Assembly: GCA_022843175.1 (NCBI GenBank)
Contig: JALHOE010000038.1
Location: 1 to 52,061, forward strand
Length of the DNA stretch: 52,061 nt
Reading direction: 5' to 3'
Source: Deltaproteobacteria bacterium
GTDB taxonomy: Bacteria > Myxococcota_A > Polyangia > Polyangiales > JADJMO01
Made by a program: the position numbers and the translations under genes. The notes under the pieces are model-generated. The model saw only the letters and a program-made list of their open reading frames with translations, was not told the origin of the DNA and ran no database searches. This document shows positions 45,628 through 51,270 of the stretch, one piece after another (the stretch's first letter is position 1; every line of letters starts with the position of its first letter).

Positions 45628-46248
45628 CTACGAAGGCATCGTGAGCAGGCGTTTGCGGGCGCCCTCGAGGGAGTCGGCGTCGAGCTTGTGGAGCAGCGTG
45701 CGGACCTGGGTCTTGTAGGTGTTGCGCGTGATGCCGCGCTTGCGCTGGACCTCTTCGGCCGCGTGGCCGGCGAGATAGGAGACCAGCAGATCGGCCTCCG
45801 GTCCGCTCAGGCGGTGCTTCGCCGCGGCGCGCGCGACGCGGGCGCGAAGGATCGGGTCGATTCCGGCCTCGCCGGCCAGCGCTTCGATGACGAAGCGGGA
45901 GAGCTCGCCCGGCCCCATCGGCTTGAGCAAGCACGAAGCGCCGAGGCGGTAGGCCTCGTTGACGGCGTCGGGCTCGAGCTCGCCGGTGAGGATCAGCGCG
46001 GGCGCGTGCGGCGCGGTCTCGCGCGCCACGCGGAGGAACTCGATGCCCGAGCCGTCCGGGAGCTTGAGGTCGATGACGAAGCCGCTGATCCGCCGCCGGC
46101 TCGCCGAGAGTCGCGCCGTCGCCGTGCTCAGATCGGACGCGTCGATGCACTCGCGCGAGGGCGCGAGCAGACGCGAGAGCGAGCGCGTGACCGTGGGGTC
46201 ATCGTCGACGAGGAAGAACACTCCCGGTGCGGTCGTCGCTAACTGCAT
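45628..46248 (-). CDS. response regulator with C-terminal helix-turn-helix, end of the HK-ThDP operon
   Basis: A 206-residue regulator. The receiver (about 8-125) has FFLVDDDPTV, phosphorylation site Asp60 in GFVIDLKLPDGSG, Thr in ALILTGE and Lys in CLLKPMG. The C-terminal 70 residues (RLSGPEADLLVSYLAGHAAE, then RNTYKTQVRTLLHKLDAD) form a LuxR-like helix-turn-helix. The ATG at 46248 follows GGAGCGAGC; a GTG at 46218 is possible. It overlaps the citrate-synthase-like gene upstream by 50 bp, so it is the last gene of the operon beginning with the kinase at 51040, and is the likely partner of that kinase. Confidence 0.9.
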   Translation of the reverse strand: MQLATTAPGVFFLVDDDPTVTRSLSRLLAPSRECIDASDLSTATARLSASRRRISGFVIDLKLPDGSGIEFLRVARETAPHAPALILTGELEPDAVNEAYRLGASCLLKPMGPGELSRFVIEALAGEAGIDPILRARVARAAAKHRLSGPEADLLVSYLAGHAAEEVQRKRGITRNTYKTQVRTLLHKLDADSLEGARKRLLTMPS

Positions 46249-47026
46249 GCTCGCTCCGCGGACTCCGCCGCGGCCCACGCCCACTGTACGCGATCGTGCC
46301 CGGGGGAAGCACGCGCAGCTCGGGGGATGGCTCGGTGCCGGCCTCGAAGGCGTTGGCGATGAACACCGGTTGGTTGAGGAAATGGATGATCGCAGCGGAC
46401 TCAACCGGATCGAATCCCATGTCGAGGAGGAGCGCGGCGGTGCCGATCCCGATGTTGGGCGGCAGCCGCCGCTCGTTTTTTACGACTTCGGTGAGAACTT
46501 CCTGGAGTCGAAAATACGGAAGCTGGGCGCGACCGCGGAGGACGACGCGCTCGCGAAGTGCGACGAAGCGCTCGTCATAGGCTCGGAACGGGATGCCGTA
46601 GCCGATCAACCGCTTACGCCCCTGGACGAGCTGTCGCGCCTGCTCGGCGACCACGTCGCGGTCGTCGAGGCGATCCCCGACGGCGTCACGCAGGCTGACG
46701 AGCAGCTCCGCCGCATACCTCGCGGTGGGCGGTCCGATGCGATCGCCCTCGACGACCATGTGCCCCGCCGCGTAGCCGGCGAGGATGCCGCCGTAGGAAG
46801 CGACGACGCGGATCAGCTTGAGCGGCCAGATCCGAGGGTCGGCCACGAGCAGCACCGCGGCGAGATCGTCGAGGATGGCCACTTCTTCGGGCGTGAGGCG
46901 ACGCCCGCCGATCGCGAGCGCGATGAGGCCCGCGGTGCTCTCGTGCGCGACGAGCTCGCCGAACACCGCGTACCCGCGGAATCGGTGCTCCGGGAAGCCG
47001 AGCGCTGCGACGCGCGTCGTGATCAT
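46199..47026 (-). CDS. divergent citrate-synthase-like protein 2
   Basis: A 275-residue protein related to citrate synthase/citryl-CoA lyase. It starts FRGYAVFGELVAH, has a small-domain-like IALAIGGRRLTPEEVAILDDLAAV, then GRKRLIGYGIPFRAYDERF and NIGIGTAALLLDMGFDP, matching the G-x-G-H-P-x-x-x-x-D-P-R and N-V-D-x-x-x-A-x-x-L-x-x-L-G segments of the family. Ile-Pro replaces His-Pro at the first, and no L-H-G-G motif is seen, so normal condensation chemistry is unlikely. It overlaps its partner gene by ATGA and the response regulator by 50 bp. Confidence 0.7.
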   Translation of the reverse strand: MITTRVAALGFPEHRFRGYAVFGELVAHESTAGLIALAIGGRRLTPEEVAILDDLAAVLLVADPRIWPLKLIRVVASYGGILAGYAAGHMVVEGDRIGPPTARYAAELLVSLRDAVGDRLDDRDVVAEQARQLVQGRKRLIGYGIPFRAYDERFVALRERVVLRGRAQLPYFRLQEVLTEVVKNERRLPPNIGIGTAALLLDMGFDPVESAAIIHFLNQPVFIANAFEAGTEPSPELRVLPPGTIAYSGRGPRRSPRSEHAVSDDRTGSVLPRRR

Positions 47027-47589
47027 GGCTCCTCGTAGCGAACGGCGGGCAGGTTGAGCGGGTAGTCGCGGAAGCTCGCGGGCGGCGTCGCGAGCCCCTC
47101 GGCCGCGACGACCGCGATCCGCGCGACCAGCCACACCGCCTCGAGCTGCTCGTCGCGCTCGATGCCGCACTCCGCGAGCATCGCGAAGATCGGCGACAGC
47201 GTCTCGTCGTCGCGCCCGTTGCGCACCATGAACCGCGCCTGCTCGGCGAGCGCGATGGCGCCCGTCCCGAGCACGGCGCTGTGACTGGCGTCGCACACGC
47301 GGGCGAGCGACGCGGCGTGGCTCGGCGCCTCGGCGACCGAGATCGGCGCGAGGAGGATGAGCGCCTGCTCGAACGTGCTCGACTGCTCCTCGGTCGGCAG
47401 CTCACCGGTTAGGGAGAGGAACACGACGTCGCTGAAGCGGTAGTGTCGCGCGAGGTCGGAGCGAACCGCGTAGCCATGGATGCGCGGGTCGGGCTCCGGC
47501 GAGACGACCCGCGCGGTGAGCTTCGCGGGCCACGCGTGCTCGTCGAACGGCGTCCGCTGCTCTCGGTCCCACGGCGCTCGACTGCGCAT
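47023..47589 (-). CDS. divergent citrate-synthase-like protein 1
   Basis: A 188-residue protein. IHGYAVRSDLARHYRFSDVV then FLSLTGELPTEEQSSTFEQA match the N-terminal small-domain region of citrate synthase (I-x-G-Y-x-V then L-x-G-E-L-P-T). A later ARVCDASHSAVLGTGAIALA is where the active-site H-G-G-A loop would follow, but AEQARFM stands there instead. Its start resembles that of the 275-residue neighbour (GYAV and L-x-G-x-x-x-T-x-E), so the two may be paralogues or two parts of one split protein. The start ATG shares its A with the ThDP gene stop (TGATG), and its own stop overlaps the next start. Confidence 0.7.
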   Translation of the reverse strand: MRSRAPWDREQRTPFDEHAWPAKLTARVVSPEPDPRIHGYAVRSDLARHYRFSDVVFLSLTGELPTEEQSSTFEQALILLAPISVAEAPSHAASLARVCDASHSAVLGTGAIALAEQARFMVRNGRDDETLSPIFAMLAECGIERDEQLEAVWLVARIAVVAAEGLATPPASFRDYPLNLPAVRYEEP

Positions 47590-49364
47590 CAGCTCTCGAT
47601 GAACCCGGCGAGGGACTTGGCGCGGTCTCCGAGGGGCGGACAGACCGAGCCGTCGACGCGGACCTCGATGACCGCGGGCCCGCCGCGGCGCAGCGCCTCG
47701 GTGACCGCGCCCTGAATCTGGCCGGGCGAGTCGACGACCCACGACGAGAGCCCCATCGCGCGCGCGATCGCCGCGACCTCGAGGGGGCGACGATACTTCG
47801 CCGCGCGCATCGGGGTGCCCTTGCTGAGGATCTTGCTGCAGTGCCAGGTGATGCCGTGCATGTTGTTGTTCTCGACGATCCAGATCACCGGGACGTCGCT
47901 CTCGGCGGCGGTCAACAGGTCCATCCCGTTCATCGTGAAGCAGCCGTCGCCGATGATCGCGAACACCGGGCGCGAGGGCTCGGCGAGCGCGGCGCCGATC
48001 GGCGCGAGCGTGCCGTGCCCCATCGATCCGAAGCCGAGGTTGATGACGAAGCGCTGGCGCTCGCCGATCGATAGGTGGTGCAGGTTGAACAGCATGTGCC
48101 CGCCGATGTCGGAGAACACGATCGCGTTCTCGGGGAGCACCTCTTGCAGATCGACCCGCCACCGCGCCGGGTGCACCGGCACGTTGTCGCTGGTGCGACC
48201 GGCCGGGTCCTCGTAGCGGCTGTGCCAGCGCGGGAGCGGGGGCGCGTCGGCCCACGTCGACTCGGGCTTCACGCCCTCGCGGAGCTTGCGATGCGTGTGA
48301 TACACGAGCTCGACGAGGATGCTCTGGGCGTCCCCGACGAGCGGCACGTCGACCGGGTAGTTGCGGCCGATGCGGTCGGCGTCGATGTCGAGCTGGATGA
48401 GGCCCCGCGAGGGGAGGAGCTTCGGGTTCCAGTTCATCGTGGTGGTCTCGTTCAGCGAGGCGCCGACGGTGAACAGCACGTCGACGTCGCTGCCCATGAT
48501 CGTGTCGCGCGCGGCGCGGTGACCGGCGACGCCGAGCACGCCGAGCGACAACGGGTGGTTCTCGGGGAACACGCCCTTGGCGCGCGGACTCGTCGCCACA
48601 CGCGCGGGGAACATCTCGACGAGCGTGCGCAGGTGCTCCCTCGCGCCCGCGATCTCGACGCCCGAGCCGACGAGGATCACCGGGCGCTTGGCGGCGAGGA
48701 GCAGCTCGGCGGCCCGGGTGACCGCGGCGCGATCGAACGTGGTGGTCTCCGGCCGGTAGGTCTGCGGATCGAACCACTCCTCGACGAGCGGCTTGTCCCA
48801 GATGTCGACCGGGACGTTGAGGTGCACCGGCCCGGGGCGCCCGGTGAGCGCGAGGCGGAGCGCGCGACGGAGGTGATGCGCCATCGCGCTCGGCGACGTG
48901 ACCATCGCGGAGTACTTGGTGATCGGCCGGAACATCGCCACGATGTCGATGTCCTCGCGGGTCGTCTCCTGGGCGGCGCCCTTGCCGAGCGCGTGCGACG
49001 CAGCCTGGCCGCTGACGACGAGCAGCGGGACGCCGTCGGCGAACGCGCACGCGACGCCGGTGAGCAGGTTGGTCGCGCCGGGGCCGGACGTGCCGGCGCA
49101 CACCGACAGGCGCCGGCCGACGCGGGCGTACCCGTCGGCCATGAACGCCGCGCCCTCCTCGTGCTTGGAGACGATCAACGAGATGTCGTCGTCGCCCTCG
49201 ATCGCCTCGAAGAACGGGTGCAGCAGCCCGCCGGGGATGCCGAACACGAAGCGCACGCCCTCTGCCTTGAGGTACTTGAGGAACACGTCGACCACGCGAG
49301 GCGCGGCCACCGGCGGGGCGGACGGCGCGCGGGGCGGAGGCAGATACGAGATCGTGTTGCTCAT
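47589..49364 (-). CDS. ThDP-dependent enzyme, acetolactate synthase large-subunit-like
   Basis: A 591-residue enzyme of the acetolactate synthase/carboligase family, with all three domains. It has SKHEEGAAFMADGYAR with the activating Glu69, GTSGPGATNLLTG, a central nucleotide-type domain (AAKRPVILVGSGVEIAGA) and the ThDP-Mg motif GDG at 472-474, ending in NN at 499-500. The sequence follows the ALS pattern (SGQAASHALGKGAAQETTR, FRPITKYS), but no small regulatory subunit is nearby and the flanking genes are not of branched-chain synthesis. It probably joins or cleaves 2-oxo acids or related acyl compounds. The ATG at 49364 overlaps the kinase stop (ATGA); its own stop shares a base with the next ATG. 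Confidence 0.88.
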   Translation of the reverse strand: MSNTISYLPPPRAPSAPPVAAPRVVDVFLKYLKAEGVRFVFGIPGGLLHPFFEAIEGDDDISLIVSKHEEGAAFMADGYARVGRRLSVCAGTSGPGATNLLTGVACAFADGVPLLVVSGQAASHALGKGAAQETTREDIDIVAMFRPITKYSAMVTSPSAMAHHLRRALRLALTGRPGPVHLNVPVDIWDKPLVEEWFDPQTYRPETTTFDRAAVTRAAELLLAAKRPVILVGSGVEIAGAREHLRTLVEMFPARVATSPRAKGVFPENHPLSLGVLGVAGHRAARDTIMGSDVDVLFTVGASLNETTTMNWNPKLLPSRGLIQLDIDADRIGRNYPVDVPLVGDAQSILVELVYHTHRKLREGVKPESTWADAPPLPRWHSRYEDPAGRTSDNVPVHPARWRVDLQEVLPENAIVFSDIGGHMLFNLHHLSIGERQRFVINLGFGSMGHGTLAPIGAALAEPSRPVFAIIGDGCFTMNGMDLLTAAESDVPVIWIVENNNMHGITWHCSKILSKGTPMRAAKYRRPLEVAAIARAMGLSSWVVDSPGQIQGAVTEALRRGGPAVIEVRVDGSVCPPLGDRAKSLAGFIES

Positions 49365-51040
49365 GCGCTCTTGGCCTTTCGTATCTTCACGATCTTGCCG
49401 ATGATGTCGCTTCGCGGCTCGGCGTCGTTGGTGGGCGGCAGGGACTTGGCGGTCGGTTTCACCGGCAGATAGATCCAGAACGTGGTGCCCACCGCGGGTT
49501 TGGACATGACCTCGAGCCGACCGCCGATCTTGTCGAGGAGCTGAACGACGACCGACAGCCCGAGGCCGTAGCTGTTCGCGCTGCGCGTCGCCTGCTCCGA
49601 GCCGCCGGGCTGGAACACCTGGTCGATGGTCTCGGGATCGATGCCGCGACCGCTGTCGGACACCTTGAGGACGAGGAAGCCGGGGCTGCCGTCGACCTCG
49701 ACCACGATGCTCCCCCGCTCGGTGTACTTCGCGGCGTTGCTGAGGAGGTTGTCGGTGATCCGGTCGACCAGGAGCGAATCGGCCAGGATCGTGTCGGGCG
49801 CCTCGCGGGTGCGGAACACGCTCGCGCGGATGTCGCGACCGTGCACCATCGCGCGGAGGCGACGACGAAGGCGCTCGGTGAGAGCTTCGACCTCGAGCGG
49901 CTCGGGCGCGAGCTGGTGCGCGAGCGACGTCTGGCCGGCGGAGATCTCCATCAGCTCGCGCAGCATGCGGCGCATGCGCTCGACCGCGTCCTCGAGCTCC
50001 TGGAGCACCTGCGGCCCCTCGTTGCCGAGTCGGTGGGCGTTGGCGCCGAGGTACTCGAGGCCGCTCTGCATCACGAGCAGCGGGCTGCGGAGATCGTGCG
50101 AGAAGCCGCGTAGCTCGCGGACCCGCGCCTCTTGCGACTGCTGCATGCGCTCGATCACGCGCTGGATCGTCGCGGCGCGGCCGGCCGCCTCGTGCTCGAG
50201 CACGCGGCTCCATTCACGCTGACGATGATGGAACGCGAGGAGCTCGCGGCGCGCTTCGGCCTCTTCGCTCGCGAGCTCGCGCAGCGCACGATTCTGCTCC
50301 TCGCCGACGGCGAGGTTGGCGCGTCCGGTGCGGTGCTGCTCGAACGCAAACCCGATCGCGCCGCCCAGGGCCGGCAGCGACATCATCGCCACGGCCTCGA
50401 GCACCCCGAACCGCGCGGCGAGCGTCGCGGCGGTGGCACCGGCGACGGTGCCGAGCAAGCTCGGCAGCCAGCTCCTGCGCGTGAAGTAGCGAAGCTGGTA
50501 CTCGCACGCGGCATCGCCCTTCGCGACACACGAGATCTCGTGCACGGTCGCGCGGGGGAGCTTCCACAGCGTCGGGATGTCGGCCGTCTGCGCCTGGCGC
50601 ACGAGGCAGTTGAGGCGACTGATCTTGCGGATGCCGTCGAAGCGAACGTGAAGCGCGGTGCGCGAGAGCGAGACGATCTTCGGCTGGCCGATGGTGCACA
50701 CGAGCTTGTAGGTTTGCTCGGCGAGCGAGTAGATCGCCGAGGGCGTGGTCGCCCACAGGGCGAAGCGCATCGGCCCGTAGCCCTCGGCCATGCGGTAGAC
50801 CGCCGCCCCGCGGAACTCCTCGTCCGACGTCATCTCGGCGCGTGCGCCCTCGAGGAAGCTCTCGAACTGCGCCTGCGAGATCCAATGATTGCCTCCGTCG
50901 AGCTGCGACGGATCGACGCCCGCTTGCGTGCCGATGCGCAGCGGCAGCTCCGCTCCGCGGTTCGCGCCGAGCCAGCGCGCGAAGGGCAGCAGGATCTTCG
51001 CGTTGTATTCCGCGCTTCCTGTGGTCGATGGGCTATTCAC
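49361..51040 (-). CDS. membrane histidine kinase with V4R-like sensor domain
   Basis: A 559-residue kinase and first gene of the five-gene operon. The N-terminal half (about 50-185) resembles V4R/heme-NO-binding-associated sensors: EGYGPMRFALWATTPSAIYS, then HEISCVAKGDAACEYQ with Cys171 and Cys179. Two hydrophobic segments (about 191-210 and 213-232) are followed by a coiled coil (240-305). The dimerisation helix has GFSHDLRSPLLVM with His315. The ATPase domain has NLLSNAAKYT, VSDSGRGID and YGLGLSVV. I chose the GTG at 51040 because AGAGGGAG lies 8 nt upstream; the longer in-frame reading covers the promoter region. It may sense a small hydrophobic ligand or a redox state. Confidence 0.9.
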   Translation of the reverse strand: MNSPSTTGSAEYNAKILLPFARWLGANRGAELPLRIGTQAGVDPSQLDGGNHWISQAQFESFLEGARAEMTSDEEFRGAAVYRMAEGYGPMRFALWATTPSAIYSLAEQTYKLVCTIGQPKIVSLSRTALHVRFDGIRKISRLNCLVRQAQTADIPTLWKLPRATVHEISCVAKGDAACEYQLRYFTRRSWLPSLLGTVAGATAATLAARFGVLEAVAMMSLPALGGAIGFAFEQHRTGRANLAVGEEQNRALRELASEEAEARRELLAFHHRQREWSRVLEHEAAGRAATIQRVIERMQQSQEARVRELRGFSHDLRSPLLVMQSGLEYLGANAHRLGNEGPQVLQELEDAVERMRRMLRELMEISAGQTSLAHQLAPEPLEVEALTERLRRRLRAMVHGRDIRASVFRTREAPDTILADSLLVDRITDNLLSNAAKYTERGSIVVEVDGSPGFLVLKVSDSGRGIDPETIDQVFQPGGSEQATRSANSYGLGLSVVVQLLDKIGGRLEVMSKPAVGTTFWIYLPVKPTAKSLPPTNDAEPRSDIIGKIVKIRKAKSA

Positions 51041-51103
51041 GCGCGCGGCTCCCTCTGGAGAGATGCGACAGCCCGAGACGAATCTCGTGGGCCGTCCCAG
51101 GGT

Positions 51104-51270
51104 CTTTCGTAAATTTTGCAAAGTGTGTCGCGGCCCCGGTGGGGTGTCAGTCCCCACGGGCGTCACGGGGCAGGCCAAAACGTCTGAACCACACCCTGCG
51201 CAGTAGACCTACCGCGCGAGTTCCACGAGGAACCGGGTCACTCTGCTCTATAGAGTTTTGCGAAATCACA
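51104..51270. promoter_or_regulatory. AT-rich regulatory region upstream of the HK-ThDP operon
   Basis: The 354-bp gap 51041-51394 contains two AT-rich patches unusual for this genome. One at 51104-51123 carries TTTCGT-AAATTTTGCAAAG. One at 51246-51278 carries the perfect palindrome CTCTATAGAG (51246-51255) and TTTTGCGAAA. The motif TTTTGC(G)AAA occurs in both. They are plausible promoter and operator DNA for the leftward operon starting at 51040; no gene is supported in this gap. Confidence 0.5.

Follow-up and report, generated by a model that had tools for sequence, protein, structure and literature searches.

Carboligases dependent on thiamine diphosphate (ThDP) that act with a condensing partner are known from carbazole biosynthesis, where CqsB3 or NzsH is paired with CqsB1 or NzsJ, respectively. 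According to the available sections of PMC7466098, CqsB1, which resembles ketoacyl-acyl carrier protein (ACP) synthase III (KASIII), condenses the ThDP product of CqsB3 with 3-hydroxybutyryl-ACP. ScyA and NzsH each couple a pair of 2-oxo acids, and the ThDP products of this kind are described as unstable beta-keto acids in the accessible part of PMC9822442. C-C bond formation dependent on acyl-coenzyme A (acyl-CoA) is also part of Cqs/Lqs alpha-hydroxyketone signalling (CqsA/CqsS, LqsA/LqsS), in which, in the portion available of PMC3376566, the synthase gene lies beside that of a sensor histidine kinase (HK). Here we describe, in a 52,061-nt myxococcotal contig (JALHOE010000038.1, hereafter the window), two short citrate-synthase-like proteins, CS1 and CS2, encoded next to a ThDP enzyme and an HK. 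Three sister HK-ThDP operons have a KASIII where the window has the CS pair, a setting suggestive of a novel route by which a small molecule is made and perhaps sensed.

The window shares with the carbazole route the combination of a ThDP carboligase and a condensing partner, a pairing also found at three of our loci (L145, L147 and L148; PMC7466098, as far as available). It differs in that the putative partner is a pair of citrate-synthase fold, that no cyclase is present and that an HK is added. As in the Cqs/Lqs systems, a synthase gene adjoins an HK gene; however, CqsA and LqsA are pyridoxal phosphate enzymes (same sections of PMC3376566), whereas here a ThDP enzyme and the CS pair are found and the signal is a candidate only. 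BbmA, of the BbmA/CsmA (8X3X, 8X3Z) and ScyA-related enzymes, is the top solved match of the ThDP enzyme, which in contrast scores below the curated NCBIfam cut-offs here. Finally, CS2 resembles citryl-CoA lyase (6HXP) and the corresponding module of ATP-citrate lyase in its fold, over almost the whole length, and in its GxG loop, DxR motif, the Asn before the catalytic Asp position and the C-terminal Arg. Unlike citryl-CoA lyase, it has both catalytic His, the Asp and the DHG His replaced, CS1 is devoid of those segments, two unlike proteins stand in place of one, and a ThDP enzyme is linked. Judging by titles and abstracts, no paper that we retrieved from the open-licence PMC literature concerns a ThDP-linked CS pair, and we found no report there of such a signalling system in Myxococcota. 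Fold and ThDP chemistry are both already known; what would be new is the putative function of the pair.

CS1 and CS2 share the citryl-CoA lyase fold

In the window, four genes on the minus strand form an overlapping run in the order HK-ThDP-CS1-CS2. The HK (49361-51178) carries HisKA and HATPase_c domains (Pfam) and an N-terminal domain, called HKn here, that is conserved in the family alignment; its true start is uncertain, the open reading frame beginning with TTG at 51178. Its stop overlaps by 4 bases the ATG of the ThDP gene (47589-49364), whose end reaches one base into that of CS1 (47023-47589, 188 aa). CS2 (46199-47026, 275 aa) overlaps CS1 by four bases at 47023-47026. Translation agrees with the positions, lengths and four-base overlap of the two CS frames in a preliminary description of this DNA, in which the HK did not figure.

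That description had placed both proteins near citrate synthase and citryl-CoA lyase from their motifs, all of which are present (GYAV in CS1 and CS2, GYGIPFRAYDERF and NIGIGTAALLLDMG in CS2). The similarity of single sequences to citrate synthase was real but weak. CS1 matched Pfam PF00285 with E=1.4e-4 (21.4 bits, under the curated cut-off of 27), CS2 had no Pfam match, and scores with the NCBIfam citryl-CoA lyase model NF004866 (cut-off 245) were 3.7e-7 (29.5 bits) for CS1 and 9.7e-9 (34.7 bits) for CS2. The relationship became firm with family profiles, which matched Hydrogenobacter citryl-CoA lyase 6HXP with E=3.6e-14 for CS2 and E=4.7e-6 for CS1, and each other with a probability of 94.2 (E=1.1e-7, 198 columns). 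AlphaFold2 models were of high confidence for both (predicted local distance difference test, pLDDT, 89.9 for CS2 and 93.1 for CS1) and showed the citryl-CoA lyase fold rather than an unrelated one. CS2 aligned with 6HXP over 250 residues (Z 22.5, root-mean-square deviation 3.5) and CS1 with 6HXO chain E over 168 (Z 14.5, deviation 5.4). All 50 entries listed for CS1 belong to the citrate synthase superfamily, with citryl-CoA lyase modules as the best; helical models can reach such Z by chance, and for CS1 it is the profile match that carries weight. Profiles and predicted folds thus rule out a chance resemblance to citrate synthase and indicate that CS1 and CS2 derive from a citryl-CoA lyase. 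In public model libraries, CS2 has no Pfam name and the pair would at best be called 'citryl-CoA lyase', a label that would mislead.

Catalytic residues are lost and new ones are invariant

The usual catalytic histidines had been reported as missing, with HGGA absent and GxGHP read as GYGIP. Alignment with 6HXP and column counts confirmed this and added the catalytic Asp to the losses: the HGG His is replaced by I97 (46736-46738), the GYGH His by I145, within residues 142-153 (GYGIPFRAYDER, 46568-46603), and the Asp by G193 (46448-46450). The DHG His is also gone (P64). Across 27 CS2 rows (the window and 26 of 28 loci, excluding L065 and L083, whose CS2 genes are fused and interrupted, respectively), the second His position is occupied by V in 20, T in 5 and I in 2, and neither His there nor Asp at the catalytic Asp position occurs in any. 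No aligned His was found at the first position either; in four of the 27 (L067, L068, L077 and L081) a one-residue deletion puts a His directly before G98 (HGP), which bars a blanket statement. CS1 lacks the HGG and GxGH segments altogether and keeps G39, H91, E164, P177 and P181 in 29 of 29 rows. In the window, CS1 has lost about 35-45 aa in frame from its middle, a shortening not seen in its relatives.

Invariant in all 27 CS2 are, among others, D63, W67, P68, L69, K70, R73, R148, D151, E152, R153, N191, D202 and R253, the first five lying in the segment DPRIWPLK (residues 63-70, 46817-46840). By alignment with 6HXP, D63, P68, R73, D151, R153, N191 and R253 are ancestral, whereas W67, L69, K70, R148, E152 and D202 differ from it, having been gained or altered. 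Likewise invariant are G142 and G144, the glycines of the CoA loop. Of the 5 solved relatives shown, 4 have Lys or Arg at the position of R148, and we take the R148 counterpart to be the CoA-phosphate arginine of citrate synthase; the arginines of CS2 presumably bind substrate as their citrate synthase counterparts do. Since the new residue set never varies among the 27 CS2 relatives, CS1 and CS2 are not decaying. Third codon positions are the most divergent in both genes, and this, with conservation in 35 loci, rules out a pseudogene or frame error.

Distribution of the pair and its ThDP enzyme

Of 377 Myxococcota genomes searched at the protein level, 28 gave matches, 17 of them strong (E <1e-29, window included). 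A pattern scan ([APT]D[PA][RH][IV]WPLK) of contigs from 84,980 species returned 28 loci, mostly myxobacterial by record title. Among these, L070 and L075 are titled 'uncultured proteobacterium' and L074 'bacterium'; L074 and L075 share their contigs with G361 and G047, both of which are assigned to the class and phylum of the window, and L070 is not placed. A wide spread outside Myxococcota is therefore not supported by the pattern scan. A single-sequence scan gave no match, so that distant relatives may escape detection.

Merging both searches by CS2 identity yielded 39 non-redundant Myxococcota loci. Left out of this count were 11 weak places of the 33 from the protein search, as well as L150 (G281:C37). 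The weak places that are readable in full resemble PRK06224 and keep GLGHP or GIGHP, and L024, when profiled, has an intact HGGA with GFGHR; L032 had no profile match, and the second weak place in G093 received no locus. The PRK06224 'citryl-CoA lyase' proteins of other Myxococcota are, like the CS pair, short, citrate-synthase-like and without the HGG His, but they keep the GLGHP His and are single proteins. Such proteins at L025-L031, L033 and L004 (the latter in the genome of the window itself) keep GLGHP or GIGHP without the HGG His and may be misnamed.

CS1 adjoins CS2 in 35 of the 39 loci. The 'obligate pair' of the preliminary description therefore stands as close to obligate, while the other four loci form a separate group with a single protein. 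Among 18 genomes with a strong CS1, 17 also have a strong CS2, and in the remaining one CS1 is cut by a contig end. The two genes overlap in 18 of 28 loci. In the single-CS group (L052-L055 and L150), a ThDP enzyme is accompanied by one CS-like protein that is extended at its N-terminus, the motif reading GFGRP or GIGRP in the four shown.

A ThDP enzyme is present in 32 of the 35 CS1+CS2 loci, as type A (58-100 % identical to that of the window) in 23 and as type B (28-36 %) in nine. L061, L062 and L072 have none, L072 being cut by a contig end. Distances for CS1, CS2 and the ThDP enzyme correlate (r 0.64, 0.54 and 0.30; 0, 0 and 10 of 2000 permutations, respectively; 22 loci).

The ThDP enzyme of the window, of the acetolactate synthase superfamily, has the TPP_enzyme N, M and C domains (Pfam) with an intact catalytic Glu and GDG...NN motif. 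The Glu and GDG/GDA...N are kept in all readable rows (L066 is partial and L064 frame-broken). The window enzyme scored 398 bits against the acetolactate synthase model TIGR00118 (cut-off 538), and its best match among 135 distinct PDB sequences was BbmA (8X3X, E=1.3e-136), also the top solved match for a type-B and a single-CS-group ThDP enzyme. A ScyA-related model gave 564-732 bits with L060, L080 and L079 (type B, 3 of the 4 scanned first) and 701 with L052 of the single-CS group, while L071, L055 and L039 scored best with acetolactate synthase; all these scores fall under the cut-offs of the models concerned.

A KASIII stands in the CS slot of sister operons

Type-A ThDP enzymes occur in 14 of the 377 genomes, with CS1 adjoining in 13 and a KASIII in the remaining one (G364). 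There (L145), HK and ThDP genes are followed, 14 bases downstream, by a KASIII gene with Cys, His and Asn in place, and searches of the whole G364 assembly revealed neither CS1 nor CS2. This KASIII matches NF006829 with E=2.7e-41, under the cut-off of that model. ThDP, KASIII and HK genes also stand in a row in G345 (L147) and G325 (L148), and L146 has a KASIII-like fragment beside its ThDP gene. The Cys-His-Asn set is present in L090/L145 and L147. Conversely, no such KASIII was found at any CS1+CS2 locus when 55 loci and the window were searched.

In a tree of ThDP enzymes, KASIII-linked L145 is sister to CS1-linked L091 (95/90) and KASIII-linked L148 to L039, which has CS1+CS2 (100/99). These pairings imply that the swap occurred at least twice, or that the partner was exchanged back and forth. 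The placement of L147, which joins L071 by long branches, is not to be trusted.

Proposed function of the pair and alternatives

From this analysis we tentatively favour, at somewhat less than an even chance, the reading that CS1-CS2 is a re-purposed partner that carries out a KASIII-equivalent acyl-CoA step on the ThDP product, which the kinase may sense. The beta-keto acid made by the ThDP enzyme would be handled by CS1-CS2 together with an acyl-CoA, the job of KASIII in carbazole biosynthesis. The two proteins probably form a heterodimer in which CS2 provides most of the active site. The nucleophile would arise from decarboxylation of the beta-keto acid, so that the His and Asp with which citrate synthase enolises acetyl-CoA would be dispensable; a decarboxylating substrate would thus explain why these were lost with the CoA loop and the carboxylate-side arginines kept. 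If the KASIIIs found here act as in the carbazole route, the CS pair that takes their place most probably performs an acyl-CoA step equivalent to theirs. If this is true, a fold of central metabolism has lost its textbook catalytic triad and been re-used for a ketosynthase job, and the natural swap partners allow a direct side-by-side comparison.

Several observations weigh against the KASIII-like role. In the flanks examined, no ThDP enzyme accompanies the CS pair of L061 and L062, so that this partner is not strictly required. The swap rests on three KASIII loci, the fourth (L146) being a fragment. The KASIII of L148 (L148:4246-5370) keeps its Cys but has lost the His and Asn, and may be non-catalytic. 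At L039 the CS genes are oriented away from those of the ThDP enzyme and HK, and no Cys nucleophile takes over from the KASIII cysteine. At 4 of the 5 single-CS loci a FabF-type ketosynthase is found, so that CS and ketosynthase can coexist there. As for the kinase, the nine type-B loci, L075 and L048 have no HKn-type kinase, which is therefore not strictly required either, and the HK N-terminal domain gives weak Pfam matches (family alignment of 15 rows), at best 7.3e-5 for Arabinose_bd in 2 of the 15 and 0.02 for V4R in 4 of the 15.

We are less sure of what the kinase does. It may sense an alpha-hydroxyketone-type product of the adjoining enzymes, in the manner of an autoinducer synthase/receptor pair. 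The complete picture, in which the ThDP carboligase and the CS heterodimer, as a KASIII analogue that has lost its canonical catalytic residues, build from acyl-CoA an alpha-hydroxyketone-type molecule read by the HK, is doubtful as a whole. If true, it would provide a candidate myxobacterial signal synthase and its receptor in one compact operon, and myxobacterial cell-cell signals are of wide interest. A plain regulatory role of the HK is as likely as product sensing: that it exerts transcriptional control of an ordinary biosynthetic operon, the product being no signal, is a serious possibility to which we give nearly the same tentative weight as to the KASIII-like reading itself. HKn was found at 19 of 23 type-A loci and at none of the nine of type B, where the ThDP-CS core does without this kinase, and no conserved cognate response regulator was found. 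Two of the four type-A loci where HKn was not found, L066 and L069, are truncated by the end of their contig; the other two, L075 and L048, are without it. Against a mere control function stand the 4-base overlap of the HK and ThDP genes in the window and the co-occurrence of the two, since a type-A ThDP enzyme is encoded in 12 of the 13 genomes in which this HK family occurs. A distant HK (27 % identity) in G293 lies on a 4.2-kb contig without ThDP enzyme or KASIII.

The preliminary description had suggested that the CS proteins are passive pseudoenzymes that bind an acyl-CoA and present it to the ThDP enzyme. Such a role, or an allosteric one like that of acetolactate synthase small subunits, would fit the loss of the second His and Asp in all 27 CS2, the missing active-site segments of CS1 and the tight linkage to the ThDP enzyme. 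Nevertheless, the mutual exclusion with KASIIIs, two of three of which have the full Cys-His-Asn set, suggests an enzymatic slot, and the invariant K70, R148 and E152 would have no obvious use in a mere presenter. The exclusion and the new invariant residues together argue for a re-purposed, enzyme-like partner, and we consider the passive role rather unlikely, albeit the best of the alternatives for the pair itself.

Somewhat less probable still is a re-purposing independent of CoA, in which the pair would be a decarboxylase, ketol isomerase or cyclase that has the ThDP product as its sole substrate and uses its carboxylate-binding arginines. It is consistent with the retention of the ancestral substrate-side D63, R73, D151, R153, N191 and R253 while the catalytic residues were lost, and with the instability of the beta-keto acids that ThDP enzymes of this kind make (PMC9822442, available part). 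The invariance of the CoA-loop G142 and G144 and of the basic R148 speaks against it, however, as does the fact that the KASIIIs replacing the pair are CoA/ACP enzymes.

That other residues sustain a citrate synthase or citryl-CoA lyase activity, a view that the common fold and the His before G98 in 4 of 27 could favour, is very improbable in view of the complete loss of the second His and the Asp, of P64 at the DHG His and of the separate intact citrate synthases in the same genome. That the genes are decaying relics or frame artefacts, as the shortened CS1 and the weak single-sequence matches might suggest, is the least credible of all and already largely refuted by the divergence of third positions, the conservation at 35 loci and the confident structure models.

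Neighbouring genes and variant loci

Downstream of CS2 on the minus strand, the window encodes a response-regulator-like protein (45628-46248; Pfam Response_reg, 3e-12) whose gene begins before CS2 has ended; in the window, this protein might work with the HK. A conserved cognate regulator was looked for in this protein and rejected: by tblastn, 2 of 48 loci (L036-L083) matched it, weakly (1.6e-5 and 1.7e-4). To judge from these comparisons, it is probably not part of the module.

The neighbours differ between loci, and no conserved set of biosynthetic genes from which the product could be named was found. Those sampled (Pfam) include short-chain dehydrogenases/reductases, the FabF-type ketosynthase of the single-CS group and unrelated genes. 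At L061, neighbours include a major facilitator superfamily transporter, a 3-hydroxyisobutyrate-dehydrogenase-like protein and a hydroxyacyl-CoA dehydrogenase/enoyl-CoA hydratase fusion (Pfam); the neighbour genes of L062 are of similar size and match those of L061. Type-B carriers include Nannocystis pusilla and Enhygromyxa salina.

Two loci have altered CS2 genes. At L065 (5883-7076; same contig as L038), the C-terminus of CS2 is fused to a RidA/YjgF-like domain (PF01042, 4.4e-28). At L083 (7030-8544), in a Sandaracinaceae metagenome-assembled genome, a transposase gene of the IS66 family (PF03050) lies between the two halves of CS2, and CS1, HK and ThDP genes look complete.

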